The translations under genes and the position numbers were made by a program. Positions 27,342 to 51,919 of a DNA stretch of 64,000 nt are shown one piece after another (position 1 is the first letter of the stretch; each line of letters starts with the position of its first letter). The notes beneath the pieces are model-generated. The model made no database searches. It had not been told where the DNA came from and worked only from the letters and a program-made list of their open reading frames with translations. This stretch comes from Bacteroidota bacterium (GTDB taxonomy: Bacteria > Bacteroidota > Bacteroidia > B-17B0 > Aurantibacillaceae), in the NCBI GenBank assembly GCA_020403265.1, contig JADBXZ010000014.1:62001-126000 (forward strand), given 5' to 3'.

Positions 27342-28757
27342 ATTAAAGGCATTATTAAATATTTACCCATCATCTTTATAGAAGGTGCCACGGTTATGAC
27401 TGTTGAACTTTGCGGTGCAAGATTACTGTCCCCAATTTACGGAACAAGTTTATATGTTTGGAGCAGTGTAATGGCAATAACCTTAGCCGGCTTGGCAGCA
27501 GGTTATTTTCTTGGCGCTTTTTTCAGTCAAAAAAAAGACACTTCAAAGATTTTATTGAATGTATTATTTAGCGCTGGTATTTTCATTTCATTCATTCCTT
27601 TTTTGGCCTATTACATTGTACCACGTATTTCGTATTTCAATTTTAACCTGGCAGTACTATTAAGTTCCGGTATTTTGTTATTTATACCAATTGTAGCACT
27701 TGGCTGCACCTCGCCATTATTTATTAAACAGTTGGCTAGTGATACCGATGCCGGTAAATTCAGCGGTATGGTTTATGGCATCAGTACGGTTGGGGGTATT
27801 CTTTCCACCTTAATCTCCGGTTTTTATATCATCCCGGTATTTGGGTTTAATACAACCATCCTTACTTTTGGTATCATTTTAGTGCTGTCAAGTATAATCA
27901 CCTTCAAAAAAATAAATACCGGGTTGTTGTTGGTTTTTATAGTTACAAATTATTTGTCCTTTCAAATCAATCCAAAATCAAAAAGTAGTTTATTCAGAAA
28001 AGAAAGTTTAAATGGTACCATTGAGGTAACGGAAGAACGAACCGGTAATTCTGTTAGCCGTATTTTGTCTATCAATAACATTATTCAAACAGAGTATAAT
28101 TTAACCAACAAGGTTAGTAGCAGTAAATATCTAAAAATCATTGAGTCAGAAATACTGAAAGACAGCACGACGGGAAATGTGCTTATTTTAGGTTTAGGAG
28201 GTGGTGTATTATGTAATATGCTTGTTGAAAATGGTTTTAACGTAACCGGTGTAGAATTTGACGAAAGAATAATAAACTGTAGCAGAAACTATTTTAATTT
28301 AAACCCAAACGTTAAAGTGATAGAAGATGACGCTCGAAACTTTATCAATAATAACAAAGAAGTATATCAATATATTGTTTTTGATTTATTTAAATCTGAA
28401 GAATGTCCTGCACATACTGTAACCTTAGAAAGTTTTGAATTAGTTAAAAAACAATTAACTGCAAATGGTAAACTGTTTATCAATTGGCATGGTTATTATT
28501 CTGGTAAAGAAGGACTTGGAACGCTTACATTACTTAACACTTTAAGTGCCGCCGGTTTTGAAGTTAATTTAAAAAGTACAGATAAGTTACAAGCCCATAG
28601 TAATTTAGTATGGGTAGCAAAACCAAGCAAAAATGTATCAGTCATTTCTTCGCTTCCTATTAACTTTGATAATTACCAATTGCTTGAGAAACAAAACGCT
28701 TTAGCTAGTTTACAATGGCGAAAAAATTATTTGAACTATTATCAAGGAAAGAATTAG
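27342..28757 (+). CDS. Fused MFS/spermidine synthase-like membrane protein (possible non-ATG start)
   Basis: TM region 'GARLLSPIYGTSLYVWSSVMAITLAGLAAGYFLG' plus synthase-like 'VLILGLGGGVLCNMLVENGFNVTGVEFDERI'; frame is open upstream of the track's ATG (27396). Confidence 0.8.
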   Translation: MKGIIKYLPIIFIEGATVMTVELCGARLLSPIYGTSLYVWSSVMAITLAGLAAGYFLGAFFSQKKDTSKILLNVLFSAGIFISFIPFLAYYIVPRISYFNFNLAVLLSSGILLFIPIVALGCTSPLFIKQLASDTDAGKFSGMVYGISTVGGILSTLISGFYIIPVFGFNTTILTFGIILVLSSIITFKKINTGLLLVFIVTNYLSFQINPKSKSSLFRKESLNGTIEVTEERTGNSVSRILSINNIIQTEYNLTNKVSSSKYLKIIESEILKDSTTGNVLILGLGGGVLCNMLVENGFNVTGVEFDERIINCSRNYFNLNPNVKVIEDDARNFINNNKEVYQYIVFDLFKSEECPAHTVTLESFELVKKQLTANGKLFINWHGYYSGKEGLGTLTLLNTLSAAGFEVNLKSTDKLQAHSNLVWVAKPSKNVSVISSLPINFDNYQLLEKQNALASLQWRKNYLNYYQGKN

Positions 28758-30697
28758 TTGGCACCAAAGCTAACTGCTATAATCTGAATTTTACGCTCCA
28801 TGGCAGCAAATGGACTGTAAACGCTGTTTCGTTTATCCTTTAAATCATCACTTACTAAACTGGCTTCCAATTCTCCAATATCAACATCTTCAAAAATAAT
28901 TTTACCTTCGCCCGGAGTAGTATTGTTAATATATTTCTTAAACCAACCCTGCTTGTATTCGGTAAAGTAATTTCTTAAACTGCTAATACGTCTTTTAGCA
29001 AGATTAACATTATAGTCGGTACTGGCTAGGGGGCTGCAGTATCCTTTCATGGTTATTTTAACTATTTCATTCTTTAATAATACTTGCTCAAGTAGTTTGC
29101 TAAACTTTATTAAATCATTCATTCCGGCATCAACACTATCGGTAAAAAAATCTGTTAAACTTTCAAGAGCTTTTTCTTTTAATGGCTCTGTTAAACCTGC
29201 CGGATAATATTTTTCATAATCAGGCACCAATTTTTTATAATCAATATAAGTTGATTCATAATTTCTTTTAGTTTCAATGTTTTTTGTTTTTGGGTCAGGT
29301 TCATCGTTATGAAAATACAATGTGAGTGGAACCAATAGTTTTAATTGTTGTTTATTTTCCTGCAATGTATCAACAGCTTTCGGAGGCAAAGTCAATGGTT
29401 CTATATCAAATCGGTAAATATCATTACAACAGTTTAATTTATGTTCAAAAAAAGACCCAACACGGTTACTACTTAAATAAGCTCTGTTTTTTGCTTTATT
29501 AACAGAGTAGTAAATATCATTATAACTGCTGTTAATGGGGTAACCGGCATTTTCAGGTTCCAGAAATAAGCTGTCTTTATAAATAGACTTAAAGATATCA
29601 AATCCGCCAAGTCCCTTATGATAAGTACTACTAAAAAAAAGTTGATTTCGTTCGGTAATGAACCAAGGTGTAATCTCATCATCTGGTGTATTTACGTTTT
29701 TTCCAGCATTAACCGGTTCCGAAAAAGTGCCATCTGAATTTACGTAACTATACCAAATATCCAAATTGCCTTGTCCGCCTGGGCGGTTACTTGCAAAAAA
29801 CAAAACAGTTTTATTGTTTATTTTACCAAAACTGGGCTGGGTGGTATTATAGCCTTTGAGGTTAATAGGAGGAGGTAATGACGCAAGCTCTTTCCATTTG
29901 CCATTTAATTGATCAGAATAATAAATCTCGCAGGTGAACTCACTTGCATTTTTGGCTTTACAGCGTGAAACAATCATTCGCTGATAATCCTCTGTAAAAC
30001 AAGTATTAGCATTATGCAAATAGGTTGAATTAATTGATGTATCAAGTAGTGTTGGCTTTTGCCATTTGGTGTTTTTAATGTCACTTTGATATATTTTATT
30101 GAATGCAACTTCATTAGGATCTCTTTTATTTTTTATTCTTAACGAAGAAAAATAGAGTGTGCTGTCCATTTCAAAAGCAGCATATTCACTAACTTTACTA
30201 TTGATATTGGTATCAAGGTGCTCAGGCTTTGGAATTACAGGCAATTTTATAGCTTGCGGAGCCCAGTTGCATGCCTCGATTTCGATGTTGCATTTTTTCA
30301 GGTAATAATCTAAATTGAAATTATATTTCTTTTTTTTGGTTTTACTGAATTTAGTAAACTGCTTTTTTGCATCCTTATAGTTTCCCTTCTGTTTGTAAAG
30401 TTGCCCTAACCAATAATAGCACAGCGGGTACTTGTTTTTTTCATCATTGGTTAAAACTTTGGTATATAAGCGAATAGCTAAATCATTATCGAAATTTAAT
30501 CGACTTGCCTCTGCGAATTGGTATTGTAATCTTATATCGCTGCTATCATGACTATAAACACGACTATAATATTGGGCAGCTCCAAACCAATCTTTTTCGG
30601 CAAAGGCCAAATCACCATAAATTCTTAATTTTCGATCGCTTTGCGCAGAAACGAAATTGAACAAAATACAAACTAAATATGGCGTTAATTTCTTCAA
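28754..30697 (-). CDS. TPR-PD40-OmpA family protein (PorE-like)
   Basis: N-terminal TPR-like, 'LFFASNRPGGQGNLDIWYS', 'LFFSSTYHKGLGGFDIFKS', OmpA-like 'TMKGYCSPLASTDYNVNLAKRRISSLRNYF'. Confidence 0.85.
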   Translation of the reverse strand: MKKLTPYLVCILFNFVSAQSDRKLRIYGDLAFAEKDWFGAAQYYSRVYSHDSSDIRLQYQFAEASRLNFDNDLAIRLYTKVLTNDEKNKYPLCYYWLGQLYKQKGNYKDAKKQFTKFSKTKKKKYNFNLDYYLKKCNIEIEACNWAPQAIKLPVIPKPEHLDTNINSKVSEYAAFEMDSTLYFSSLRIKNKRDPNEVAFNKIYQSDIKNTKWQKPTLLDTSINSTYLHNANTCFTEDYQRMIVSRCKAKNASEFTCEIYYSDQLNGKWKELASLPPPINLKGYNTTQPSFGKINNKTVLFFASNRPGGQGNLDIWYSYVNSDGTFSEPVNAGKNVNTPDDEITPWFITERNQLFFSSTYHKGLGGFDIFKSIYKDSLFLEPENAGYPINSSYNDIYYSVNKAKNRAYLSSNRVGSFFEHKLNCCNDIYRFDIEPLTLPPKAVDTLQENKQQLKLLVPLTLYFHNDEPDPKTKNIETKRNYESTYIDYKKLVPDYEKYYPAGLTEPLKEKALESLTDFFTDSVDAGMNDLIKFSKLLEQVLLKNEIVKITMKGYCSPLASTDYNVNLAKRRISSLRNYFTEYKQGWFKKYINNTTPGEGKIIFEDVDIGELEASLVSDDLKDKRNSVYSPFAAMERKIQIIAVSFGAN

Positions 30698-30706
30698 ATA
30701 GTTAAG

Positions 30707-31708
30707 CTACATAAAAACTGGGCAAGCACGCTTTTTTGCTGTGTAGCCTCGTTTTGTTTTAATTATGTAATTAATATAAATTTCAAATGCACCTCGTCGA
30801 TTAGTTGCAGCAATGAATTTACTTGTGTTTATATCATAAGCAATACCACTTTGCATGGTTTTAAAGTGATAACCTGCTCTTAGTATAAAAGCATCTCTGG
30901 CTCTTAAACTTAAACCACCTAATACCGCTTGATTTAAATCTTTATTAAAATAATATTTTAAAGAAGCATGGGGTAAAACCTCGTAATATTTTCCCTGCGT
31001 ATTAATAAGCGCTTCAGCTATCAGATCTGTTTTTATACCAATTGGGGTTGTGTAACTAAGATAATTGCTGAACTTAAAATCTAGTTTACTTAAACGATTA
31101 CCTTGGTATGTAATTACAGGATTGGTGAGGTGATGCAGTCCTAATCCATACATGAATTTGTGTTTTGAATTAAGAATATATTGGAGTCCGGCTCCTACAT
31201 TGAAGTCGGCAAAGGTGTAATACGTGTAGTTAAATCGTTCGCCGGTAGCCAAATTTTTATTGTAATTAGCACCGTCAAACTGATTGTCAAAGGTCATTTT
31301 GGTGTAATCAAATCCAACCTGACAAATGCCAAAATTAAGCCCGGTTGACAGTAGGAGAGAACTATCCTGTTTAAGGGGAACAATGTAAGCAGCACTAAAG
31401 TAAAATTGATTGGTACCATAATTGGCATCACCCGCCTTATCGTTGTTAAAAGTAAAACCAACACCAACCATGTCTCGTTTTTCAGCGAAAGGTTTAATAC
31501 GCATTTCGCCACCCATACTAAAGGTAGAATAAGGTACGGGTACGCTGAGCCATTGGCTCCTGTAAATTGCGTTTACACGGTAATCACCATTAAAAAAGCC
31601 TGTAAATGCGGGCGATTGATTTAATAAACTACCATTAAATTGAGAAAAATGTATATCCTGAGCATTCAGAAAAGTGATGCAGCAGAGGGCCAATAAATAT
31701 TTAAGCAA
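30707..31708 (-). CDS. PorP/SprF family type IX secretion membrane protein
   Basis: 'AQDIHFSQFNGSLLNQSPAFTGFFNGDYRVNAIYRSQW'. Confidence 0.93.
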   Translation of the reverse strand: MLKYLLALCCITFLNAQDIHFSQFNGSLLNQSPAFTGFFNGDYRVNAIYRSQWLSVPVPYSTFSMGGEMRIKPFAEKRDMVGVGFTFNNDKAGDANYGTNQFYFSAAYIVPLKQDSSLLLSTGLNFGICQVGFDYTKMTFDNQFDGANYNKNLATGERFNYTYYTFADFNVGAGLQYILNSKHKFMYGLGLHHLTNPVITYQGNRLSKLDFKFSNYLSYTTPIGIKTDLIAEALINTQGKYYEVLPHASLKYYFNKDLNQAVLGGLSLRARDAFILRAGYHFKTMQSGIAYDINTSKFIAATNRRGAFEIYINYIIKTKRGYTAKKRACPVFM

Positions 31709-35859: not shown

Positions 35860-37203
35860 ATGAGGCGTATTTATTGGATTATTGGAACAGGCATTACATT
35901 AATTATTATTTTCATATTAGTTAGTAAATTAAAAGGTAATAAGCCTACAGAGGTCTATACAGAAACAGTTACAAAACGAACGATAATAGAAGTTGTTTCT
36001 GCTACGGGTAAAATTCAACCTGAAACAGAGCTAAAAATCAGTAGCGATGTGAGCGGTGAAATAACAGAAATGTATGTGAAAGAAGGTGATCAGGTTAAAA
36101 AAGGTGATTTACTTTGCAGAATTAAGCCTGATTTGTACATGAGTGCTATTGATAGAGTGAGTGCAACGGTTAATACTACCAAAGCAAATTTACAAACTGC
36201 AAAAGCACAATTAGAACAAGCGAAAGCCAATTTAGCAAGCAGCCTGGCGGCCTATAACCGAAGTGAAAAACTATTTAATCAAAATGCCATTTCGCAACAA
36301 GAGTTTGAAACAAGTAAGGCTGCATATGAAGGAGCAAAAGCAAACGTAGCCGCATTAGAAGCCGGCGTAAATGCCAGTAATTATACTATAGAAAGTTCGC
36401 AGGCATCCTTAAGAGAGGCAAATACGAATTTAGAAAAAACTTATATATACTCTCCTGTTGATGCAACTGTAAGTAAACTTTCATCTAAAAAAGGCGAAAG
36501 GGTTGTTGGTGTAAGTGGCATGACAGGTACCGAAATTCTTCGTCTTGCCAATTTAAATGAAATGGAAGTGAGTGTTGAGGTAAACGAAAACGATATCATT
36601 AAAGTGCATAATCAAGATACCGCTATTATTGAAGTGGATGCCTACATGGACAAAAAATTTAAGGGCATAGTTACAGAAATTGCGAATTCATCAAATAGTA
36701 ATGGTATTTCAGTAGATCAAGTAACCAATTTTACAGTTAAAATTAGATTACTCCGCGAATCCTATGCCTTTTTAATAAATGAAAAAAACCAAGTACCGTT
36801 TAGACCCGGAATGAGTGCAAGCGTGGATATTCAAACCAGAAGAGCCGTTAATGTGCTTTCTATTCCCATCCAAGCAGTTACAACCAGAAACAAAGACAGT
36901 TTAAAAACAAATAACGAATTTGACCGACCGGAAGTTAAAGTTAGTAATGATCAAGAAACAAAATTAAAAAGCAGTGAGGATGATTTAAAAGAGATTGTTT
37001 TTATTGTTGAGAACTCAATTATTAAGCAAACAATAGTTACAACAGGCATACAAGACAATGACTACATAGAAATTGTATCGGGACTAAAACCTTCTCAAAT
37101 TTTAGTTTGTGGGCCATACAAAGCAATCAGTAAAACTTTAAAAGATTTACAAAAAGTAAATGTTGTTAAAAAAGAGGATCTATACAAGGAGGAAGAACAG
37201 TAA
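35860..37203 (+). CDS. Efflux RND/MacA-type periplasmic adaptor subunit
   Basis: TM anchor, 'VVSATGKIQPETELKISSDVSGEITEMYVKEGDQVKKGDLLCRI', coiled coil, 'FRPGMSASVDI'. Confidence 0.88.
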   Translation: MRRIYWIIGTGITLIIIFILVSKLKGNKPTEVYTETVTKRTIIEVVSATGKIQPETELKISSDVSGEITEMYVKEGDQVKKGDLLCRIKPDLYMSAIDRVSATVNTTKANLQTAKAQLEQAKANLASSLAAYNRSEKLFNQNAISQQEFETSKAAYEGAKANVAALEAGVNASNYTIESSQASLREANTNLEKTYIYSPVDATVSKLSSKKGERVVGVSGMTGTEILRLANLNEMEVSVEVNENDIIKVHNQDTAIIEVDAYMDKKFKGIVTEIANSSNSNGISVDQVTNFTVKIRLLRESYAFLINEKNQVPFRPGMSASVDIQTRRAVNVLSIPIQAVTTRNKDSLKTNNEFDRPEVKVSNDQETKLKSSEDDLKEIVFIVENSIIKQTIVTTGIQDNDYIEIVSGLKPSQILVCGPYKAISKTLKDLQKVNVVKKEDLYKEEEQ

Positions 37204-37872: not shown

Positions 37873-37997
37873 TACTTTTACACTAATTTAAGTAAATTTA
37901 AAAATACCCTTTATCTATTAAAAAAAATGTTATATCTTTAAATATTATATGTTCATCGTTGTTTAATCAATATCTGAACTCTAAATATTGTTTAAGT

Positions 37998-40322
37998 ATG
38001 AAAAAAATTTATATTACATTACTAGTTTGTTTTTCGTTTTCGTTGTCTTCTCAAGTAGGTGCGCCAAAATTCATTAATTATCAAGGCCTAGCAAGGGATG
38101 CCTCTGGAATACCCATCCAAAATCAAATTGTTGCCATAAGCTTCACACTTACTAATGGTGTATCAACACCATTTACTGATTCAAAAAACAGTACAACGAA
38201 TGCATTTGGTTTATTCAACACAACCATTGGAAGCAATGCTAATCCAATTAATGTTGATTTCTCAGCAGGTAATTACAACTTATTAGTTTCCATTAATGGT
38301 AGTAGCCTGCCTCCACAATTACTGGCAAGTGTTCCATACGCTCTAAATGCTCCTGAACCTCTGGTAACATATACGTCGGGCATTTTAACCATTGGTTCTA
38401 CCTCTATTGCCATAAGCTCTGGAACAAACTACCAAGCCGGAACCGGTATAAGTATTGTATCAGGTTCAATTATAAATACCGCACCTTCACAATCCATTAA
38501 TATTAGCGCCACAAATCCTTTAACTGTTACTTCTGCTCCCCCTATTTACAGTATTGGTTTAACACCTCAAATCTTTAATTCTATAGGAGGCGGTTCGGTT
38601 ACGTCTACTTACGGTGGAACATTTGTTATTCCAACATCAACCAGTTCTGTTTTAAGTGGTGATGCAAATGGCCCTTCTAACAATAACACGGTAACTGCCA
38701 TTCGAGGCTTGCCAATTTCAACAATCGCTCCAACCTCTGGTCAAAATTTAGTTTTTAACACCGGACAATGGACACCTTCAACACCCATTTTTTCACTTTC
38801 GGGAAATACAATCTTTCCTTCAACACTCACAAATGGACTAGGCATAGGAATCAATTCATTAAATATCGGTGGCTCCAATTATTCTGTTGCGGTTAACGGT
38901 AATCAATATTTAAATGGTTTTTTACACCACGGCGGCATGTCTTCAATGCCTTCCGTTGCAGGTACTGGTAATGGCCGAATATACTATGATAATACTACTA
39001 ATCGTTATATGGTTTCTGAAGGATTAAATACATATATTCCTTTAGTCCCTAATAATATTTGGAATAAAACAGGTTCAAGTATAGTACCAACAACAACAGT
39101 TGATAATGTTGGGATTGGAGTTCTTACGCCAGCAGCTAAACTTCATGTAAATGGACAAACACGTATTGATCAACCAAATTTGTCTGATGGTTTATTAATT
39201 AGTCATACCGGTAGTATCGGTTCCGCAGCAAGTTTTACGAGTGTTACAGGAAACGGTTTAATCGCATCAAGCTCTCACTCAACCAATTATGGTGTATTTG
39301 GTATTAATACTAATGCATCACCTGCCGGTTATGCAGGTTATTTTGATGGTGGCTTGGTTACGCGAAGTAAAGCTGGTGCATCAACTGATGCGTTTCAAGT
39401 TTGGAATAATGCATCTTCTCCTCTGTTAAACGTCAAAAACTCGGGCAATGTAGGAATTAATGCACCTAATCCTAACGCCAAATTGCACATCATTGAAAAC
39501 ACATTAAGTAATCAACAGGCAGCACTTTTTATAAATAATTATACCTTAACTTCTGCTCCTTCATTTGGCTTAAGAGCGTCTAGCGCTAACTCAAACTCAA
39601 TATCCGCAGGTGTTTATGCAGAGAGTTTAGGAGGAGGAAATGGTGTTTCCGGAATAAGTACTTCAACTACATTTACTGGAACAGCAGGCGTTTATGGTCT
39701 TGCGCAAGGAACGCACTCAACTAACGTGAGTATTCAGGCTGATGCTAATAGTGGTAGTTCAACCGGAATGTTTGTAAATAGTTTTAGCGGTCATTCAGGT
39801 ATCGCCTTGCATGTAAAACGATCAGGTACTGGCAGCGGAATTGGCGCACGCATTGAAAATATTGTAGCGGGAAATACCGCAGATGCTGTTTTTGCCTTAA
39901 CAGAAGGACCTGGTGCAGCTGTTCACGCAGTTAGTTCGGCTACAAATAATGCATCAGCCTTATCTCTTTTATTAGAAAATGGCCATATTGCAACTCAAGG
40001 CGCAGCTCCTTCAACAACTGTAATTACCCCTTTAGGAACTGGCGGCACCGTGACATTACTAACCTCCTCAACAGATGTTGCAGGAAGAATTACAATAAAC
40101 TTTGGAACGGGCGGATTTACAGCATCCACATTTGCTGGAATTATTTTTAACAAACCTTATACTTTTGCTCCAATAGTTATTTTGACACCTGCATCTTTTG
40201 CAGCGTCATCAGCAAATATTCACGTTACTTCTTCACCCGGAGGATTCAATATTACTTACAATACACCGCCAGCTGCAAGTACATTGCATAGTTTTAATTA
40301 TATAATTATTGAAACAAAATGA
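37998..40322 (+). CDS. Secreted tail-fibre-like protein (paralog 1); track start is 37959
   Basis: Signal peptide at the internal ATG 37998; 'GAPKFINYQGLARDASGIPIQNQIVAISFTLTNG'; Gly/Ser/Asn-rich repeats; C-terminal 'IIFNKPYTFAPIVILTPAS...FNYIIIETK'. Confidence 0.75.
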   Translation: MKKIYITLLVCFSFSLSSQVGAPKFINYQGLARDASGIPIQNQIVAISFTLTNGVSTPFTDSKNSTTNAFGLFNTTIGSNANPINVDFSAGNYNLLVSINGSSLPPQLLASVPYALNAPEPLVTYTSGILTIGSTSIAISSGTNYQAGTGISIVSGSIINTAPSQSINISATNPLTVTSAPPIYSIGLTPQIFNSIGGGSVTSTYGGTFVIPTSTSSVLSGDANGPSNNNTVTAIRGLPISTIAPTSGQNLVFNTGQWTPSTPIFSLSGNTIFPSTLTNGLGIGINSLNIGGSNYSVAVNGNQYLNGFLHHGGMSSMPSVAGTGNGRIYYDNTTNRYMVSEGLNTYIPLVPNNIWNKTGSSIVPTTTVDNVGIGVLTPAAKLHVNGQTRIDQPNLSDGLLISHTGSIGSAASFTSVTGNGLIASSSHSTNYGVFGINTNASPAGYAGYFDGGLVTRSKAGASTDAFQVWNNASSPLLNVKNSGNVGINAPNPNAKLHIIENTLSNQQAALFINNYTLTSAPSFGLRASSANSNSISAGVYAESLGGGNGVSGISTSTTFTGTAGVYGLAQGTHSTNVSIQADANSGSSTGMFVNSFSGHSGIALHVKRSGTGSGIGARIENIVAGNTADAVFALTEGPGAAVHAVSSATNNASALSLLLENGHIATQGAAPSTTVITPLGTGGTVTLLTSSTDVAGRITINFGTGGFTASTFAGIIFNKPYTFAPIVILTPASFAASSANIHVTSSPGGFNITYNTPPAASTLHSFNYIIIETK

Positions 40323-42901
40323 GAAAACAACTTAGTATATTATTTTCCATCTTAACAACGTTTGTTGTTACTGCACAAACACCTAAATTTATTAATTACC
40401 AAGGTATAGCGCGTGATGCTTCTGGAAATCCGATTGTGAATCAATCGGTAAGTTTAAATTTTACGATTACAAATGGAAGCTCTCCGATTTATACAGACAG
40501 TAAACTTTCAAATACAAATGCCTTTGGTTTGTTTAATACAAGCATTGGAAGTAACGGCAATCCAATTACCAGTAACTTATCAAGTGGAAATTATAGTTTA
40601 ATTGTAAGCATTAACAACGTCGTTTTAAGTCCACAGAATTTAGCTAGTGTTCCATACGCCTTACATGCCGAAACGGCCTCTTCTGCTCCTGCTCCAACCG
40701 TTAACTTTAGCGGAGGTGTTTTAAGTGTTGGTGGCAACACAACTAGTATTCCGGGTGGTTCTGTATATTCGGCGGGCACAGCTATTAGTATTTCATCAAT
40801 CGGTGTTATTTCAAATCTGTCGCCAGACCAAACGGTTACGATTACTTCATCCGGTGTAGCCACTGTTAATTCTACTTATCCAACTTTTAATGTTGGTGTT
40901 CCTAATCCAAGCTTAAATTTTTCCAATGCAACTAACATTTTAACCTTAACACAAGGAACATTTGCAACAACTGCAACGTTAACCGGTTCTGGTTCTTCAA
41001 CTATAACTATTACCGGAACTAATAATGCAGTTGTGTCACCAACCGCAGGTAGTTCGTTTTTGGTTAACGTCCCAACCCAATCATTCTCAATAGCGACCAA
41101 TACTATTACATCCAATTTAGGAGGTTCATTTGTAATACCTACACAAAGTTTGAGTTTAACCGGTAATACTTTAACGTCAGGTCCTTCATCTAACAGTGTT
41201 AATCTTTCAAGCGTAATTGGGAATGATTGGAGTTTAAATGGCAATACAGGAACGGTTTTTGGCACTAATTCGTTTGGAACAAATGACTTTAGTGCGTTAA
41301 GCATTGTTACCAACAGTTTACAAAGAATCGGCATCAATACTTCAACTATAAGCGGAGCCGGTGGCGTTGTAATTGGCGGTAATACAGCTCTTACATCATT
41401 AGGTAAAGACTTAACTTTACAGGGGCCTTTAAGTTCGACATCTGACTTAACCTATGGACACATGTCCATTCGAGGAGGGTCAAATTCACCTGCTAATCAG
41501 TCATTTTTAACTTTTTCGGGAGGCCCGTTGGCTTTAGTAAGGGGGTATTTAGGCGATAGAAACACAACGGATGATGACATTACACTTTATGCACAAAACA
41601 ATTTAAGGCTTACAGCGGGTTCAGCCACTTTAAATCCAACCATTTTCATCAATGGAACGAGTAATAACGTTGCGATTGGTGGTTTCACTGCACCTTTAGC
41701 TAAATTAGACGTACAAACAACACATACTGCCGCAGCTGTTAACGGGATTAACAATGGTGCAACATCTTCTTCCTTTGCTTATGGCGTTTATGGTGAAACA
41801 AATTCTTCTTCAGCACAAGGTGCAGCAGTTAAAGGTAATAATAGTGGTATTGGTTTAGGTGTTGCCGGTGTAAATTTAACCGGGTCTGCCAGTGCTGATG
41901 CACACGGTGTTTATGGAGAGACAAACTCCACAAATGTTACAACTTATGGTGTATTCGGCCGAAATTCAGGCACAGGAAGCGGTGTTTATGGTAGAGCAAG
42001 CAGTACTGCAGCTATTAATGCTTCCGGTGTTTACGGACAAAATATTGGCATAGGATCAGGAGTATATGGAATTAACACCGGAGGAATTCCGAATAATAAT
42101 GCACATGGTGTATTAGGTATTACTCAGAATACAGATGCTAATGCCGCCGGTGTTTTTGGTTCAAATGATAATGTCGGACCTTCTATTTTTGCTCAAAAAA
42201 ATGGAGCGGCTTCAGGCAATGCTTTGAGAGTAGAGAATCTAAATTCCGGAAATAGTGCTCCAGCGTTGAATGTTAGCTCAAACTCCACTACAGGGCCCGG
42301 CTTTGCATTATCTGTATTGCAAACCGGTAATCAGGCAAGTTTATATTCACATAAAACAGGATCCGGTACAGGTAGCGCAGGTGTATTCGAAAATTTAAGT
42401 GTAACTAATTCAGCTCCTGTGCTTCAGGTTGCTAATGGAAGTTCTGTACAAATGTCGCCGGCAATTAACGCAGCTTCCAACTCAAGTATAGCTGCAATTG
42501 GCGTTCAATTGCAAAATGCGCACCTTAAATCCATTGGTAATTTGTCTGGTATCATTACCCACACCTATTCCTTTGGAGGATTCCCAGCAGGCGGTTATTC
42601 AATCACTCCTATTAACTGTACAGATGTAAAAGGCACCATCTTAATAGCAAATACCTCCTTTACAACTACGCCAAGCGGTGCAGTTGCAGACTTTGTTGTG
42701 CCATTTAACAAATCTTATGGCACCACTCCTATTGTTGTTCTTACACAACAACACACAGGAAACGAAATAAGCAAACTTAGCGTACAATTATTATCAACCG
42801 GATCAAATGATTTTACTTTCCGATTGGTTAATTTATCTGCTACACCGCTAATCTTAGTTGGTTCTGAACAAATTAAACTTAACTATTTTGTAATTGAATA
42901 A
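40319..42901 (+). CDS. Secreted tail-fibre-like protein (paralog 2)
   Basis: 'TPKFINYQGIARDASGNPIVNQSVSLNFTITNG'; repeated GVYGxxx units; C-terminal 'VVPFNKSYGTTPIVVLTQQ...LNYFVIE'; 4-bp overlap with paralog 1. Confidence 0.78.
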   Translation: MRKQLSILFSILTTFVVTAQTPKFINYQGIARDASGNPIVNQSVSLNFTITNGSSPIYTDSKLSNTNAFGLFNTSIGSNGNPITSNLSSGNYSLIVSINNVVLSPQNLASVPYALHAETASSAPAPTVNFSGGVLSVGGNTTSIPGGSVYSAGTAISISSIGVISNLSPDQTVTITSSGVATVNSTYPTFNVGVPNPSLNFSNATNILTLTQGTFATTATLTGSGSSTITITGTNNAVVSPTAGSSFLVNVPTQSFSIATNTITSNLGGSFVIPTQSLSLTGNTLTSGPSSNSVNLSSVIGNDWSLNGNTGTVFGTNSFGTNDFSALSIVTNSLQRIGINTSTISGAGGVVIGGNTALTSLGKDLTLQGPLSSTSDLTYGHMSIRGGSNSPANQSFLTFSGGPLALVRGYLGDRNTTDDDITLYAQNNLRLTAGSATLNPTIFINGTSNNVAIGGFTAPLAKLDVQTTHTAAAVNGINNGATSSSFAYGVYGETNSSSAQGAAVKGNNSGIGLGVAGVNLTGSASADAHGVYGETNSTNVTTYGVFGRNSGTGSGVYGRASSTAAINASGVYGQNIGIGSGVYGINTGGIPNNNAHGVLGITQNTDANAAGVFGSNDNVGPSIFAQKNGAASGNALRVENLNSGNSAPALNVSSNSTTGPGFALSVLQTGNQASLYSHKTGSGTGSAGVFENLSVTNSAPVLQVANGSSVQMSPAINAASNSSIAAIGVQLQNAHLKSIGNLSGIITHTYSFGGFPAGGYSITPINCTDVKGTILIANTSFTTTPSGAVADFVVPFNKSYGTTPIVVLTQQHTGNEISKLSVQLLSTGSNDFTFRLVNLSATPLILVGSEQIKLNYFVIE

Positions 42902-43650
42902 TGAGAAATTTAATAGTAATATTTAGTTGTGTTGTTATTCGATTAAGCGGCCAAACAATTGATAATTCGGTTATCAATTCTGCCGGACAAACGCATACAA
43001 TTAATTCTAACTTTATTTATACCGACAATATTGGAGAACCATTTGTAAGTACGGAATTTGTTGGAACTTACACTTTTACACAAGGCTTTTTACAAATTTT
43101 TGATGGTCCCAAAGTTTTTGTTACCTACAATCCTGTCAGTTGTACTGATCGAAAAGATGGAAATATCAGTGTAAGTGTGTCAAATGTTTCACCAACCCAA
43201 ACAGTTAGTTATTTATGGTCGCCATCATCTATCTGTACAAACGCAACTTGCAATAATGTAGATAGTTTAAATGCCGGTACCTACTCGTTAATTATTTCCA
43301 TTAAAACACCTTCAGGAACAGGATTTCTTGAGAAATTTTACCCACAAAACGCCATCACCATAGAAGACAAAAACGGTCCATGTAGAGTAAAAATATATAA
43401 TACAATTACAGCTAATGGAGATGGAATAAATGATTTTTTAACCATTGATAATTTAGAGGAATTTCCAGACCACGAGCTATTAATATATAACCGTTGGGGC
43501 AAACTTTTAAAGTCAATTAAAAATTACAAAAATGATAATGGATGGCCTGCTAAAGGTGAAACGATAATTTCTGGAACTTATTTTTATGTTTTGGACCTTG
43601 GAAAAGGTATTAAACCAATTAAAGGCTGGGTAGAATTACTAAACAATTAA
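42901..43650 (+). CDS. Secreted protein with gliding-motility-associated (CHU_C) C-terminal domain
   Basis: 'NTITANGDGINDFLTIDNLEEFPDHELLIYNRWGKLL...GTYFYVLDLGKGIKPIKGWVELL'. Confidence 0.9.
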   Translation: MRNLIVIFSCVVIRLSGQTIDNSVINSAGQTHTINSNFIYTDNIGEPFVSTEFVGTYTFTQGFLQIFDGPKVFVTYNPVSCTDRKDGNISVSVSNVSPTQTVSYLWSPSSICTNATCNNVDSLNAGTYSLIISIKTPSGTGFLEKFYPQNAITIEDKNGPCRVKIYNTITANGDGINDFLTIDNLEEFPDHELLIYNRWGKLLKSIKNYKNDNGWPAKGETIISGTYFYVLDLGKGIKPIKGWVELLNN

Positions 43651-43676
43651 AAAAATACAGCGAGTTGAAATAAATT

Positions 43677-46028
43677 ATGGATTATAAGTATGTTATATTT
43701 ATCATTTGTTTTAGTGTAGCTACTAGGCTAGGATTAGCCCAATTGCCATTTACCGCAAACTTCTTTTGCTTGGATTCATCGCTTAGGTATGGTAACTCAC
43801 TCAAAAATTCACATAAAGGCGTTATTGTAAGGGATTTTAATAAAGATGGTTATCCAGACCTAGCTTCCGTAATAAATAAAACACCTAATGGAAAAGAAAT
43901 AATTTTTCTTACAAACAACAGCTTAACTTCTACAGTAACTCTATTTAATGAATATTTTTATCCGATTTCAAGCACGCCAACCGGTACTAACACAAATGTA
44001 AATAGTATTACTGCCGGGTTTATTAATACCGATTCGTTGGCAGATGTTTTATTCATAGATAATAATAACTTAAATGTATTTGTAAACAGCACCGCAACAA
44101 CCGGCTTTAATGTACCTATTACCGGAAGTGTTGTAAATGGATACAACTTTTTAACCAACTATGGAGGCTACGCTAAATTTATTAAAGGAATGGATTTTAA
44201 TGCAGACAGAAAAACAGATGTGGTTGTATTTACTCAAAGTAGTAGTGGCCAATTAGTTGTCATGATGTTACGAAATAACTCCACCTTAACGTCTATTAAT
44301 TTCATTTTAGATGCTACCTATACGGTTTATCCTGGAACCGATTTACTTAATGTTGTTCAAGATTGTGATCTCTCTGTTAATGATGTTAACAATGATAATA
44401 ACCCTGATGTTTTATTAATGTATCGTTCTTATGCACCTTATAACGGTTATGGATTTATTAATACCAGTACAAATTCTGGTGTTCTTAGTTTTGTTGGATT
44501 TACGCTAGCCCCTCAAGGAACCTACCCGATTACAGTTCAATATGTTAATTATAAATCAGTCGCCGTAGCTAAAGTAAATGAGTTTGATAATATTAACGAC
44601 ATCGTCTTTGGTATAAATATTCCTTTAAGTAGTTCTATTATTTCTTATTTGGAAAATTCAACCGGATCGTCTGTTAATCCAACGCAAACCTTTGCTTTGC
44701 CGGTAAATGGCGATTTTATAAAAGACCTAACACTTACAGATTTAACAGGAGATAAGAATAAAGACCTCGTTGTTTTAACATCAAATCTAACAGCCTCCAA
44801 TCGCTTACTAATATATTATTACGATCCATCAATTAACGGGTTTAATTCTAATTTTACCTCCATTGCAATGCCTGCTTCGGTCGACTCACTAATTAATGAA
44901 CTGGTAGTAATGGATTACAACAACGACACCAGATGGGATCTCATTTTAAAATCATGGTCTAAAGTCACTAACTTAAATCCAGAGTACATTTACCTCATTC
45001 CAAACTTTGGCAACAAATCGTTCCTGAATCCAACTAATTATGCCGTTTGTTCGAATACCTCAATAGTATTAACCCCTACCATTGCGTATACTGGAAACCA
45101 TAATTATGCATGGAGTCTTAATACTGCCACAAGTAACCCAGTTGGAACTAGTTTAACGCACACGTTGTTACCGCCATCAGCTACAGGTGTAAATAACTAT
45201 TCGTTTAATTTTTCATATAAATTGCCATATTCCGGATTAACCTGTAATTACAAGCCACTTTCTATTAATGTTGCGTCGCTAGCGGTCCCTTCGGTAAGTT
45301 TTTCTACTAGCTCATCGATCGTTTGTAAAGGTGATAAAGCCATTTTATCAACTACAACAAATTTTGCCTCCACGTATACAATTTTTCCGTTGAATATCAG
45401 CAATACGAGTACTATAATGGTAACGCCAACTAATCTAGTTAATTATACAGCTATTGCTACAGCTTCAAATGGATGTTTTGCAGCGAGTTCGTTACAAATA
45501 AATGTTCATCCAACCCAAACAGCAGAAATTGCTCCATTGACAAGCTATAACATCTGCTTAAACGATTCTGTTCATTTAAAAAGTAATAAGGTAGCTAACA
45601 GTTATTTATGGTTTAATGGTAACACAAATAGTAACTTTTATTTTAAACCAACTGCGCAAGGAAATTACCTCATTTCACTTGGCACAATGGATACTAATAA
45701 TTGTAAAACGGATGAAGCCATTATCCAAATAACGGTTAATGATTGTATTAACTCAGACACTCTGATAAAAACGTATAACTTAATTACGCCGAACGGCGAT
45801 GGTTTAAACGACATTTTATTTATTGAAAACATTTCAAATTATCCGGATGCAGAAGTAACCATCTTTAGCAGATGGGGTCGACAACTTTTTAACAAAAAAA
45901 ACTATAATAATGCTAACATCTCTTGGCCTGCTCCAAATGAAAATATCCCAAGTGGTACATATTATTACACTGTAACAAACAATAAGTTAATATTATTAAA
46001 AGGTTGGATAGAAATATTAAAAAACTAA
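43677..46028 (+). CDS. FG-GAP/VCBS-repeat secreted protein with CHU_C C-terminal domain
   Basis: 'VRDFNKDGYPDLASV', 'DVNNDNNPDVLLMY', 'NLITPNGDGLNDILFIENISNYPDAEVTIFSRWGRQLF...GTYYYTVTNNKLILLKGWIEIL'. Confidence 0.9.
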   Translation: MDYKYVIFIICFSVATRLGLAQLPFTANFFCLDSSLRYGNSLKNSHKGVIVRDFNKDGYPDLASVINKTPNGKEIIFLTNNSLTSTVTLFNEYFYPISSTPTGTNTNVNSITAGFINTDSLADVLFIDNNNLNVFVNSTATTGFNVPITGSVVNGYNFLTNYGGYAKFIKGMDFNADRKTDVVVFTQSSSGQLVVMMLRNNSTLTSINFILDATYTVYPGTDLLNVVQDCDLSVNDVNNDNNPDVLLMYRSYAPYNGYGFINTSTNSGVLSFVGFTLAPQGTYPITVQYVNYKSVAVAKVNEFDNINDIVFGINIPLSSSIISYLENSTGSSVNPTQTFALPVNGDFIKDLTLTDLTGDKNKDLVVLTSNLTASNRLLIYYYDPSINGFNSNFTSIAMPASVDSLINELVVMDYNNDTRWDLILKSWSKVTNLNPEYIYLIPNFGNKSFLNPTNYAVCSNTSIVLTPTIAYTGNHNYAWSLNTATSNPVGTSLTHTLLPPSATGVNNYSFNFSYKLPYSGLTCNYKPLSINVASLAVPSVSFSTSSSIVCKGDKAILSTTTNFASTYTIFPLNISNTSTIMVTPTNLVNYTAIATASNGCFAASSLQINVHPTQTAEIAPLTSYNICLNDSVHLKSNKVANSYLWFNGNTNSNFYFKPTAQGNYLISLGTMDTNNCKTDEAIIQITVNDCINSDTLIKTYNLITPNGDGLNDILFIENISNYPDAEVTIFSRWGRQLFNKKNYNNANISWPAPNENIPSGTYYYTVTNNKLILLKGWIEILKN

Positions 46029-46029
46029 A

Positions 46030-46944
46030 ATGAAAAAAATCACCCTCATCTTAATCGTCCTAGCTTCTAAACTAGTTGCACAACAAGATCCGCAGTATAA
46101 CTTGTATCAATTTAATCCATTGATTATTAACCCTGCATACGCAGGAGCAAGGGATGGTATTGTTGGTACAGCGTCTATCAGAAATCAATGGGTAGGTTTT
46201 GAAGGAGCCCCAAAAACAATCGCTGCAAGTGTACATGCGCCAGTGCTCAATAGAAATATAGGCTTAGGCTTAACACTTTGTAATGATGTGATGGGTCCAA
46301 GAAACTTAACCAGTGCCCATGCTAATTTTGCGTATATCCTTAAATTGAATAATAAATATAAATTATCTTTTGGTTTAAATACCGGGCTAAACCGATACTC
46401 GTTTAATTTTAACAAATTAACTTATAAGCAAAATGAAAACATAATTGATTTCTCTCAAGTTCAAACCTTTAATTCATTTGATGCGAATTCAGGACTTTAT
46501 TTTAGATCTAATAGTTTTTTTATTGGCTACAGTAATACCCACCTTTTCTCTAAAGAAGTGTATAATATTTCAACGGGTAATAATGGATCGGTTAGTTATA
46601 GATTGCGTACTCACCAATTCTTATCAATAGGTAAATCATTTATGTTTAGCGAGAAATTTATTTTTGCACCAACCATTTTACTAAAATCTGTTAACGGAAA
46701 TGGTTTAGCTGATGTGAATCTAAATGCTTTTCTTTTCAAAAAAGTTTGGTTTGGTGTTTTTGCAAGATTAGGATACGGACCAGGATTTTTATTTCAGTAT
46801 TACATCAACAATAATTTCAAGGTTGGCTACAGTTATGATACTGGATTAGGCAGCGCAAGAAATTTAGGTTCAAGTCACGAAATTGTGATCAGTTTTGAAG
46901 GTTCAACAAAAAAATCAAAAGTAATTAGCCCACGTTTTCTATAA
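46030..46944 (+). CDS. PorP/SprF family type IX secretion membrane protein
   Basis: 'AQQDPQYNLYQFNPLIINPAYAGARDGIVGTASIRNQWVGFEGAPKT'. Confidence 0.95.
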   Translation: MKKITLILIVLASKLVAQQDPQYNLYQFNPLIINPAYAGARDGIVGTASIRNQWVGFEGAPKTIAASVHAPVLNRNIGLGLTLCNDVMGPRNLTSAHANFAYILKLNNKYKLSFGLNTGLNRYSFNFNKLTYKQNENIIDFSQVQTFNSFDANSGLYFRSNSFFIGYSNTHLFSKEVYNISTGNNGSVSYRLRTHQFLSIGKSFMFSEKFIFAPTILLKSVNGNGLADVNLNAFLFKKVWFGVFARLGYGPGFLFQYYINNNFKVGYSYDTGLGSARNLGSSHEIVISFEGSTKKSKVISPRFL

Positions 46945-46958
46945 TCGAACACCAATTT

Positions 46959-49625
46959 ATGTTTAAAACTTATTATATAATATTCTTTTTATTAAGTTCT
47001 TGTTTAGTTTCATTTGGTCAACTTAAAAAAGGCGATAATTATGTTTCAAAAAACATGTACGTTGAGGCTATAAAATGCTATAAAAAGGCAGTTAACACAA
47101 AGAACTCAAATCTTAAACAAGAGGCATTACTAAAGCTTGCCAATGCGTATAAAACAATTAACGAATACCAAAAAGCTGAATCTAGTTTTCAACAAGCATT
47201 AGCTATTGGTACCGTAAGTAATGTTGAAGAATATTATAATTACGCGCAAGTGCTCAAAGTAAACAACAAGTATGAAGAAGCATCTGAAAATTATCAAATA
47301 TTCCTGAAAAGTAATCCCAAACACGCCAATGCAAAAAATGCATTAAAATTTTGCCGAGAGATTAAATATTATACGAGTAAACCTATTGAATACGTTATAA
47401 AAAATATTGAATCCCTGAATACCGAGCGATCAGAATTCTCACCAATTTATTTTAGTAATAGATTATATTTTGTTGCAGAAAAAACAGAATTCAATTTTGT
47501 AGACTTTTCAAATAATGATTTAAACGGTGAACCCTATTTAAATATGTTTACCGCTGAGATTAAAAACGATCAGATTAAAAAGACCAAGCAACTAAGCAAA
47601 AAAATCAATACTGATTATCATGATGGACCTGCATGTATCTCATCAGATGGCAAAACCCTCTACTTTACTCGCACTAACAATAAACTAAAAGATAAGTACG
47701 TAAATCATGCTAAAATTTATATCGCAACCGGCAGTGGATCAAAATGGACTAACATCGCCTCGTTTCAATTTAATAATGATGAATACTCTGTTGCGCACCC
47801 TAGCATCAGTTCAGACGGGAATTATCTTTTCTTTACGAGTAATATGCCGGGGGGGTTTGGGGGAAAAGACATTTATTTTTGTAAAAAAGAAGCGAATGGT
47901 TGGAGTAATCCAAAAAATTTAGGACCTGATATCAATACAACCGGCGACGAAATGTTCCCGTGTATTAAAAGTAACGGTGTACTTTACTTTTCATCTAATG
48001 GTTTGCCTGGTTTTGGTGGTTTAGATATTTATTCTGCAAAACAAAGTAATGGGGTTTGGATTGTCATCAGAAATGAAGGACTGAATTTAAATAGCAGTTA
48101 CGATGATTTTGGTATAACATTTCAAAACGATTCAGTCGGGTATTTCTCATCCAACCGCCAGGGTGGTAAAGGCAAAGATGATATCTATAAATTTGCTTTC
48201 AAAGACAAATCCATGATATTAGGTGGTGCTATTTTATTAACTGAAAATCTTAATAACCCTGCAAAAAATATACATTTAAAATTACTAGATGAAAAAGGTC
48301 AATTTTTAGACAGTACTAAAACTAACTCTAACGGCGGATTTGAATTTAAAAATTTAGAAGCTGACAAAAAATACATGATGTATGTTGATGAAACCGATCC
48401 TCTGTTTGCCGGCAAAGCCCATTATTACTATGCAGATAAGAGTGGCGTGATACAGCGTATTTCCAATAAAGGATACAACCAAAAGTTTTTATTTAAAAAC
48501 TTACCGGCTGACCCTAGTGCTTTACCTGATTTATTTGCAGAAGACGATTTAACTTTGGCGGGAAATTTATTGTATGGCGAAAATCCAAGTAAAGCTATTA
48601 AAAATACAAAAATAAAACTTGTTAATGATTATGGGGATGTGATTGAAGAAACAACTACAAATGAATTTGGGGCATTTGCTTTTAGAAATATTCCTGCTGA
48701 CCAAAATTATTTATTTACAATCGAAGAATCGGACATTACTTTACCAGAAAACACTAAAATTACATTAACAAACAAAAGTGGTAAGGTTTTAAAAACATTT
48801 TATAAAGGCAAAGATAAATTCACGTTTAAGGTTATTAGCTCAGACAAAACCATGTTATCTGAAATGGACGTAAACGATGAAGATTTAATTATGGATGTTT
48901 TTGGATATGTTTACGATCAAAACAAAAAACCTATTGCTTTTACAAAAGTTAAACTACTTGCTGAAAATGATCCTGCCGTTTATGAATTAAAAACCTCAGA
49001 AAGCGGTAAATTTAATTTCAGAAATTTAAAGGCAGACAAGAATTATATTTTTGAAGCAGACGAGACAGATCCTGCATTAAAAAACGTAACCAGGATTTTT
49101 ATTGCGGATGCTAAAGGAAAAATTTATAAAGTAATTGATAAAAACATGGATGGCAAATTTAAATTTAAAATTATGGAATCTGATAAACAACGCCTGGGTG
49201 AGTTTGTAGTTGATGATCCATGGCTAGCAGTGCTTGAATTAAAAAACAAACAAGAGAAAGAGCTTACCATCATAGAAAATATTTATTATGCCAGTGGTGA
49301 CCATAAATTAGATGATGCTGGAATAAAAATTATGGACAAAGTTATCTCTGTCATGCAAAGCAACAAACAACTTATTGTTGAATTAAGTTCGCATACCGAT
49401 AGTAAAGCAAGCGACCAGTTTAACTTAGTTCTTTCAAAGAAAAGAGCACAAACCGCTGTAGATTATCTTATTGCAAAAGGAATTGACAAGAAAAGATTAA
49501 CAGCTGTAGGTTATGGCGAAACTAAACTATTAAACAAGTGTACTAATAATGTTGAGTGTACGGATGATGAACATAAAATTAACCGCCGTACAGAGTTTAA
49601 AATTAACGAACAAAAACTACCTTAA
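46959..49625 (+). CDS. TPR-PD40-carboxypeptidase-regulatory-like-OmpA protein
   Basis: TPR N-terminus, 'LFFTSNMPGGFGGKDIYFCKK', repeated 'NEFGAFAFRNIPADQNYLFTIEESD' units, OmpA 'VELSSHTDSKASDQFNLVLSKKRAQTAVDYLIAKGI'. Confidence 0.9.
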   Translation: MFKTYYIIFFLLSSCLVSFGQLKKGDNYVSKNMYVEAIKCYKKAVNTKNSNLKQEALLKLANAYKTINEYQKAESSFQQALAIGTVSNVEEYYNYAQVLKVNNKYEEASENYQIFLKSNPKHANAKNALKFCREIKYYTSKPIEYVIKNIESLNTERSEFSPIYFSNRLYFVAEKTEFNFVDFSNNDLNGEPYLNMFTAEIKNDQIKKTKQLSKKINTDYHDGPACISSDGKTLYFTRTNNKLKDKYVNHAKIYIATGSGSKWTNIASFQFNNDEYSVAHPSISSDGNYLFFTSNMPGGFGGKDIYFCKKEANGWSNPKNLGPDINTTGDEMFPCIKSNGVLYFSSNGLPGFGGLDIYSAKQSNGVWIVIRNEGLNLNSSYDDFGITFQNDSVGYFSSNRQGGKGKDDIYKFAFKDKSMILGGAILLTENLNNPAKNIHLKLLDEKGQFLDSTKTNSNGGFEFKNLEADKKYMMYVDETDPLFAGKAHYYYADKSGVIQRISNKGYNQKFLFKNLPADPSALPDLFAEDDLTLAGNLLYGENPSKAIKNTKIKLVNDYGDVIEETTTNEFGAFAFRNIPADQNYLFTIEESDITLPENTKITLTNKSGKVLKTFYKGKDKFTFKVISSDKTMLSEMDVNDEDLIMDVFGYVYDQNKKPIAFTKVKLLAENDPAVYELKTSESGKFNFRNLKADKNYIFEADETDPALKNVTRIFIADAKGKIYKVIDKNMDGKFKFKIMESDKQRLGEFVVDDPWLAVLELKNKQEKELTIIENIYYASGDHKLDDAGIKIMDKVISVMQSNKQLIVELSSHTDSKASDQFNLVLSKKRAQTAVDYLIAKGIDKKRLTAVGYGETKLLNKCTNNVECTDDEHKINRRTEFKINEQKLP

Positions 49626-49681: not shown

Positions 49682-50266
49682 ATGAAAAAAATAATTACAC
49701 TTTTATCAATAATATTAATTGTATCATCTTGCTCAAACAAATTCAGTTTACAAAAAAGAAAATATAATAAAGGTTTTTATTTTGCATCAAATCATTCTAA
49801 AAACAACTCATCCAATACCGGAAAGTTAAACCCTCAAATATTAAACAGCAAAAGTTATAGTCAGGTTAAAATAGAGCAGCAAGAATTAGAAATCGCTTCA
49901 GAAAACAATAAAAATGTAGAATTAACTGTTATGACCAATCCTGCGTCTGCTAAAATCCAGCCTAATCTATCAGAAGTTTCAAAAAATGATCTTTCTTTAG
50001 TCTCAAACAACATAAAACATATTCAGTTAAACAAATTAATTAAGCCAATGGCCTTACCAATGGCAAAAAAGGGTGGGTCTGACACCAACTTGATTGTTCT
50101 AGTTATACTTAGTTTGTTCCCTATTATTTGTTTAATAGCTGTTTTTTTAAAAGACAGTAAAAGTATTACATTAAACTTTTGGATTGATTTACTACTACAT
50201 TTGACATTAATTGGTGCAATTATTTTTGCCTTATTGGTTGTGCTTGATATTGTAAATTTGGCCTAG
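49682..50266 (+). CDS. Lipoprotein with C-terminal YqaE/Pmp3-like hydrophobic segments
   Basis: Lipobox 'LIVSSCSNKFSLQKRKYNKGFYF'; C-terminal 'LIVLVILSLFPIICLIAVFLKD...ITLNFWIDLLLHLTLIGAIIFALLVV'. Confidence 0.65.
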   Translation: MKKIITLLSIILIVSSCSNKFSLQKRKYNKGFYFASNHSKNNSSNTGKLNPQILNSKSYSQVKIEQQELEIASENNKNVELTVMTNPASAKIQPNLSEVSKNDLSLVSNNIKHIQLNKLIKPMALPMAKKGGSDTNLIVLVILSLFPIICLIAVFLKDSKSITLNFWIDLLLHLTLIGAIIFALLVVLDIVNLA

Positions 50267-50830: not shown

Positions 50831-51919
50831 TTAAGACTCGTTAGGATTAGCTAAAGTTGGTACTTTAATTTTTTCTCCTTTTTTTAAACCCTCCACAACT
50901 TCGGTAACAATCGCATCACTTAGCCCTGTTTTAACAAAACGTTTTTCGTACTTATTCTCTCCAATTAGTACTTCAACAAACGTTTTATCACCTTCAAATT
51001 GCAAAACACTTTCAGAAACCGCCAAAACTTTCTCTTTCTTTGCTAAAATAATATCAGCATTTGCGCTATAACCAGCTCTTAAAAAGGTAGCATCAGTAGT
51101 TCCGGTATTTATTTTGGCTTTAATTACAAACTGCATTGCACCGGCCTCATTAATTCCTTTTGGAGAAATATATTCTAAAGTGGCATTAAATTTAATTTTA
51201 TCAATTGCACCTATAGTAAGTTCTATCGAGTTACCCATATTTATTTTACCTACTTCGCTCTCATCTAATTTACCTTCAAAAATCATTTCGCTCATATTGG
51301 CTACCGAACATATAGTTGTTCCCTCATTAAATGTGTTACTTTCAATTACCTGTCCACCTTCTTTAATCGGTACATCTAAAATCATACCTGAAATTGTAGA
51401 TTTAACAAGCGTATTACTTGATTGAAGTGAACTTTTAGCAACGCCCTCTTTAATAATTTGTAATTGATTTTTCGCAGCCTCAACTTCTTCGTTAGTAGTT
51501 TTTAATCTTAATTCATACTGTTGAAACTCTTGTTTCGAAATAACACTTTGGTCTAATAAAGACTTATTTCTATCGAATTCAATTTTCGAGTTGTCATAAT
51601 TGATTTGGGCAGCATTAAGTCTATTTTCAGCATTAGCAAGGTTAAGCATGTTTGGTATTATTTTGATTTTGGCAATCACATCGCCTTCTTTAACCTGCAT
51701 GCCAGCAACAACATAAAGCTTTTCAACGATACCACTAACCTGCGATTTAACGTTCACTTCTTTTCTAGGAACAATTGAACCAGTTGCTACTGTTTTCTTA
51801 ACAATAGTTGTATCTGTTACAATTTCTGTTTTAACAACTGTTGGTTGTTCAGATGAACAACCAATAAATACTGAAACAGTAATAAAAGTGAAAATTAGTT
51901 TGATCAAAATTTTATTCAT
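50831..51919 (-). CDS. MacA/HlyD-type periplasmic adaptor lipoprotein
   Basis: Lipobox 'VFIGCSSE', 'ATGSIVPRKEVNVKSQVSGIVEKLYVVAGMQVKEGDVIAKI', 'LRAGYSANADIIL'. Confidence 0.88.
   Translation of the reverse strand: MNKILIKLIFTFITVSVFIGCSSEQPTVVKTEIVTDTTIVKKTVATGSIVPRKEVNVKSQVSGIVEKLYVVAGMQVKEGDVIAKIKIIPNMLNLANAENRLNAAQINYDNSKIEFDRNKSLLDQSVISKQEFQQYELRLKTTNEEVEAAKNQLQIIKEGVAKSSLQSSNTLVKSTISGMILDVPIKEGGQVIESNTFNEGTTICSVANMSEMIFEGKLDESEVGKINMGNSIELTIGAIDKIKFNATLEYISPKGINEAGAMQFVIKAKINTGTTDATFLRAGYSANADIILAKKEKVLAVSESVLQFEGDKTFVEVLIGENKYEKRFVKTGLSDAIVTEVVEGLKKGEKIKVPTLANPNES

Follow-up and report, generated by a model that had tools for sequence, protein, structure and literature searches.

How do tail-fibre-like proteins that carry no T9SS signal reach the surface of the many Bacteroidota in which they occur, and how are they kept there? 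This question is raised by a module at positions 37998-49625 of the window, a 64,000-nucleotide stretch of DNA from a draft Bacteroidota genome (4.25 Mb, 138 contigs) in which the T9SS translocon SprA is also encoded. According to our preferred reading, to which we assign a probability of about 0.6, a small protein with a domain named TQGF is delivered by the T9SS and serves as an adaptor for a trimeric adhesive fibre, which it docks and perhaps takes along in export; in this module, the fibre would be held by PorP and a PorE-like protein.

The six-gene module and its conservation

Six ORFs on the forward strand are open across this interval, with overlaps or gaps that never exceed 26 bp. The first gene (37998..40322, + strand, ATG start; a TTG at 37959 is a possible alternative) encodes FibA, a tail-fibre-like protein of 774 aa. 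It overlaps by 4 bp (40319-40322) with the gene for FibB, an 860-aa fibre (40319..42901, +). Gene 3 (42901..43650, +), which shares 1 bp (42901) with the FibB gene, encodes the proposed adaptor, a small type B T9SS substrate of 249 aa. Gene 4 (43677..46028, +) follows after 26 bp and encodes a second type B T9SS substrate of 783 aa. The last two genes encode a PorP/SprF outer-membrane barrel (gene 5, 46030..46944, +; 1-bp gap) and a PorE-like periplasmic protein (gene 6, 46959..49625, +; 14-bp gap). The six same-strand genes and their small overlaps agree with the preliminary description of this DNA.

Judged from the sequence, the module is probably co-transcribed. A promoter scan returned 65 matches compared with 59.7 in shuffled sequence, i.e., background level, and terminator-like sites numbered 17 where 7.9 were expected. 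As the latter were scattered inside genes and the promoters were at the shuffled level, transcript boundaries could not be called. A downstream lipoprotein gene (49682-50266) was excluded from the module because its position varies among relatives. HlyD-type membrane fusion proteins flank the module, at 35860-37203 (+) and 50831-51919 (-).

Relatives of the fibres are present in most species of the genus. Within the genus, no fewer than 22 further species have the order of one to three fibre genes, a small CHU_C gene, an optional second CHU_C gene, a PorP gene and a PD40-OmpA gene; one species of another family has it too. This recurrence within the genus indicates that the six-gene arrangement is more than chance. 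The window genome shares a tsaB-like gene upstream of the module with its closest relative, whereas in many other relatives a conserved 864-aa gene of no relation to it is the flanking gene; the module thus holds together while the genes around it change. The gene order is thus kept in varied genomic settings, and a dedicated appendage or adhesin, as suggested in the preliminary description, is the best reading of this conserved module. The window genome and most of its relatives are drafts, many of them MAGs, and many loci are therefore cut by contig ends.

Outside the genus, named MAGs that have the form with a type B protein, PorP and PorE include a Vicingaceae bacterium (L138) and Flavobacteriales bacterium BRH_c54 (L154). 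Two loci from another family (L080 and L083) have a fibre, a TQGF protein with a type B CTD and a PorP, with no PorE gene; the fibre in L080 has a collagen stalk. This form looks intermediate, or else like a switch to type B that took place independently. In L074, L075, L076 and many other loci of the genus, the PorE-like gene is followed by a gene for a protein of ~390 aa that, as read from its sequence, looks like a sugar-nucleotidyltransferase; no such gene follows the PorE-like gene in the window.

Fibre base domains and their TQGF partners

Both fibres are composed of a signal peptide, a base domain (FibN, ~100 residues; 38055..38354 in FibA and 40376..40687 in FibB, both +), a Ser/Thr/Asn/Gly-rich stalk, which in FibB contains GVYG-type repeats, and a tip. 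The two sequences are those of paralogues, with 61% identity in the first 100 residues and 17-34% past residue 300. Neither contains a T9SS sorting domain of type A or B. Pfam had no family for either fibre, and PDB sequence searches, run with each fibre and with the FibN profile, yielded nothing or noise. Related FibN proteins at other loci have Peptidase_S74 or collagen segments, both known from other proteins to form trimers; from these stalks, we infer that FibA and FibB may trimerise. Adhesion is their presumed function.

The fibres resemble tail fibres by sequence impression, and this, together with the Peptidase_S74 domains of their relatives, would fit a remnant of a phage, tailocin or contractile injection system. 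Such an origin is extremely improbable: there is no phage gene nearby, both fibres have signal peptides, and the genes are conserved beside housekeeping genes in two settings. A PHROG search of the fibres gave nothing above noise, and 50,697 phage records contained no relatives of them; on these searches, a phage or tailocin origin was rejected.

The FibA base domain is homologous to the N-terminal domain of the Bdellovibrio MAT fibres. All of the FibN domains that were scanned (49/49) matched Bdello_MAT_N (NCBIfam NF053851) with E<=0.01, the best at 1.4e-12. These E-values establish homology, but FibN of FibB scores 35.2 bits against a curated cut-off of 60; the window FibN is therefore a homologue of the MAT domain and not a curated member of that family. 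An AlphaFold2 model of FibN from FibB (pLDDT 87.5) has an Ig-like beta-sandwich fold. A fold search with FibN returned generic Ig-like matches alone (best E 0.02, TM about 0.5) and identified no function, and the absence of a clear solved homologue agrees with a statement in the MAT paper (PMC10769870).

Between the window genome and its closest relative, the base of FibA is 65% identical, whereas the C-terminal part is only 23-26% identical. The FibA tip is closer to its counterpart in a more distant species (55% identity), where the bases match at 35-42%. In these identity profiles, the fibre tips diverge or appear to swap while the bases and the anchor are conserved; tip exchange has also been described for MAT fibres (PMC10769870). 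The genus contains a second class of FibN fibres (L050, L051, L052 and L053), which are solitary between conserved genes on the opposite strand and have no TQGF or CTD neighbour.

The adaptor consists of the TQGF domain (~50 aa; 42952..43095, +; motif VINSAG..TDNIGEPF..TQGFLQ), a SprB-like segment and a C-terminal type B sorting domain (43387..43638, +), the latter recognised in domain searches as CHU_C (5e-23) and as TIGR04131 of NCBIfam. No Pfam family matched the TQGF domain, and its structural model is of low to moderate confidence (pLDDT about 55-70). A fold search with the adaptor model yielded weak matches alone and identified no function; the match of interest was 8glk, a T9SS substrate CTD, with an E-value of 0.58. 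In the window genome, one TQGF protein and two FibN proteins were found, all of them in the operon at 37998-49625.

A sample of 198 genomes from the phylum was searched for both domains. With a narrow profile built from the module's own versions of TQGF, 11 of 12 matches lay beside a FibN. With a broader profile, 34 of 35 matches lay at most 2.5 kb from a FibN, with about 0.1 (0.11) expected by chance; this profile was trained on fibre neighbours, and the whole-genome search would expose equally scoring members elsewhere while possibly missing weaker ones. The lone match in this sample without a nearby FibN (L086, G144:C8:73518) is in a 751-aa protein.

At 42 of 48 loci selected by FibN alone (L089-L136), a same-strand neighbour carries a T9SS CTD, with a median gap of 10 bp; at the other six, no CTD neighbour was detected. 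In a wider set of 57 loci, nine of which were selected through TQGF matches, the NCBIfam models TIGR04183 (type A) and TIGR04131 (type B) matched 47 and 5 of the neighbours, respectively, where a few may match both. Sorting domains were present in none of the 60 fibres of this set and in 16 of its 417 other ORFs. A named set of 78 loci, found by a FibN peptide pattern, contained 54 TQGF proteins; all 54 have a sorting domain, and 52 directly adjoin a fibre. Their carriers include Reichenbachiella faecimaris, Mesonia profundi, Flavihumibacter, Edaphocola flava, Lacibacter luteus and Niastella caeni. Among the blocks of this set with full context, 57 of 75 have a TQGF/CTD neighbour, and about a quarter have no visible partner.

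The pairing of TQGF with the fibres is established statistically. TQGF is joined to a type A or a type B sorting domain depending on the lineage, which indicates that the fibre-specific half of the protein is separable from the secretion half. The preliminary description regarded the coupling to fibres as unusual; across the phylum, on the contrary, proteins with TQGF and a CTD occur beside MAT-like fibres, mostly with a type A CTD and usually with no PorP. FibN does not strictly need such a partner, given the partnerless blocks and the Bdellovibrio MAT fibres, which have no T9SS. No fusion of TQGF and FibN in one protein was present among 239 FibN and 133 TQGF ORFs (overlapping loci counted repeatedly). 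A mirror-tree comparison gave a correlation of rho 0.41; in the within-genome control of matched against swapped pairs (14/21, p = 0.19), this signal was inseparable from species relatedness, and it was therefore not used as support. A literature search, with incomplete coverage and few subscription papers, found no description of a coupling between fibres and the T9SS; the phylum-wide pair of fibre and adaptor appears undescribed so far.

Proposed anchoring and export, and alternative readings

The gene 5 product matches PorP/SprF with an E-value of 6.5e-62 (NCBIfam TIGR03519) and is one of 15 PorP/SprF paralogues in the window genome. Gene 6 encodes TPR, a PD40 propeller, three CarboxypepD_reg repeats and an OmpA peptidoglycan-binding domain, in the order published for PorE. 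Against the PorE model NF052230, it scores 411 bits (E=7e-123), which is below the cut-off of 600 bits, and its match to the CHU_0125 model is also sub-threshold. Signal peptides are present in the inspected orthologues of gene 6, in which no lipobox is evident; LSSC in the window protein is a possible one. Gene 4, whose counterpart is optional in related modules, contains FG-GAP repeats, a PKD-like segment and a C-terminal CHU_C domain (45765-46013, +; 8e-20; TIGR04131). These domains and their order match a module of PorE, PorP and type B substrate, in line with the preliminary description, which had named the PorP/SprF and OmpA-type proteins as partners of the CHU_C proteins.

Published work shows that PorP/SprF takes over type B substrates from the translocon and keeps them bound, and that PorE attaches both to PorP and to peptidoglycan; it also indicates that the substrates encoded in operons containing a PorE gene are static and do not glide (PMC9143113, PMC12618676). 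Together with the lack of cysteines in the C-tail of the module's PorP, this published behaviour makes it most likely that the gene 3 protein is seated on PorP on the outer face of the cell, with gene 6 linking it to the wall.

The same cysteines bear on a gliding role, in which PorP would transport the fibres on the gliding track in the way that SprF transports SprB. PorP/SprF and CHU_C proteins are typical of gliding adhesins, and in addition to SprA the genome has, as read from its sequence, a gldK-N-like cluster and a GldJ-like protein. However, the C-tail cysteines of SprF are required for movement on the track (PMC12635249) and form bonds with GldK, whereas the window PorP (P0005) has none in its last 60 residues, and the 24 module PorPs inspected in a first set have none in their last 30. 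The adjacent PorE-like gene is a mark of static type B proteins (PMC12618676, PMC9143113). On these two grounds, we rejected the reading as a gliding adhesin, which we regard as very improbable; the link to gliding drawn in the preliminary description is thus unlikely to hold for this PorP. A second pair of OmpA-like and PorP/SprF genes in the window (28754-31708, -) has no adjoining fibre, and its PorP ends in RACPVFM, with one cysteine.

In the mechanism that we propose, FibA and FibB would be trimeric adhesins, brought into the periplasm by their signal peptides and devoid of a T9SS signal. The TQGF domain of gene 3 would bind the fibre base FibN, and the type B domain would take gene 3 through the T9SS translocon to PorP, the fibre docking either ahead of this export or after it. 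PorP would then hold the sorting domain of gene 3 on the outer face of the cell and would itself be tied to peptidoglycan by the PorE-like protein, so that the fibre would be fixed and not moved. The gene 4 product would be a second surface protein sharing this anchor. In most other Bacteroidota, a TQGF protein with a type A domain would bring the fibre to the surface via the PorV route. We infer both the direct binding of TQGF to FibN and the export route of the fibre. From the pairing statistics, gene 3 is likely the fibre socket; co-export would be an appealing explanation, given that the fibres have no other apparent way across the outer membrane.

The fibres and the CHU_C proteins could instead be independent cargoes. 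PorP and the PorE-like protein would then anchor the CHU_C proteins alone, and the fibres would surface by an unrelated route, the genes being joined by a shared condition such as surface attachment. The missing sorting domain on the fibres fits this possibility, as do other loci of the window genome in which PorP and an OmpA protein occur with or without a CHU_C protein and never with a fibre; Bdellovibrio MAT fibres, moreover, function without a T9SS (PMC10769870). We nevertheless consider it unlikely, since co-regulation alone does not predict a 50-aa domain nearly confined to the neighbours of fibres (34/35), with type A or type B sorting domains and in many families. Of the upstream proteins that the preliminary description paired with their own PorP, the type B proteins, above all gene 3, are the expected PorP substrates; the fibres, having no T9SS sorting domain, are not themselves expected to be.

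Less probable still is that the TQGF protein is not a permanent anchor but is secreted to help the fibre assemble, as a trimerisation chaperone, or to cap its tip or base, with the T9SS doing no more than delivering it to the surface on which the fibre stands. The statistics of the TQGF-FibN pairing also fit this role. Phage fibres commonly need helper proteins, which also speaks for it, and secretion normally entails the removal of a type A sorting domain, so that partners of type A could be released. However, several related fibres bring their own S74 chaperone, and the type B domain of gene 3 remains bound to PorP (PMC9143113), with the PorE-like wall anchor encoded next to it; a transient helper would need neither.

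The adaptor reading may extend to a form of two-partner type IX secretion, which we put forward tentatively and hold at somewhat less than even odds. Here, the trimeric fibre without a CTD would be the passenger of the TQGF protein, which would provide the sorting signal and then the surface socket; a swap between type A and type B would alter the anchoring and leave the contact between fibre and socket unchanged. The pairing predicts that T9SS mutants lose their fibres even though the fibres have no T9SS signal. Should co-export be true, the substrate range of the T9SS would exceed what counts of sorting domains suggest. The fibre-adaptor pair is open to direct, simple genetic tests.

Comparison with known systems

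The fibres share with the MAT (mosaic adhesive trimer) fibres of Bdellovibrio bacteriovorus a signal peptide, a beta-rich, homologous base of ~100-130 aa, a long stalk, C-terminal tips that appear exchangeable and a tail-fibre look. Unlike MAT fibres, those of the window are below the MAT_N cut-off (35 vs 60 bits), have no S74 domain and are linked to a T9SS substrate. The surface partner of the MAT fibres, or what their base binds, was reported as not yet identified (PMC10769870). The module raises the question of the binding partner of MAT-type base domains, for which TQGF, a domain not in Pfam, is one concrete candidate.

As in SprB-SprF of Flavobacterium johnsoniae, a gene for a protein with a type B CTD has an SprF-like gene directly downstream. 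In contrast, SprB has its own CTD and SprF a twin-cysteine C-tail, whereas the window fibres have no CTD and the window PorP no such cysteines.

The static type B anchoring modules PorE-PorP-PG1035 of Porphyromonas gingivalis and Fjoh_3952-3951-3950 of F. johnsoniae likewise have a type B substrate, a PorP/SprF and a PorE-like TPR-PD40-CRD-OmpA protein in a row, and the window PorP, as in these modules, has no gliding cysteines. The window module differs from them in that one or more fibres without a CTD precede the substrate, and in that the substrate carries TQGF. The PorE-like protein differs from PorE in its three regulatory-like repeats, its score below the cut-off and the apparent lack of a conserved lipobox. 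By gene order and domains, the anchor half of the module, with its type B substrate, PorP and PorE-like protein, matches a module type already described; what is new is the coupling to the fibres.
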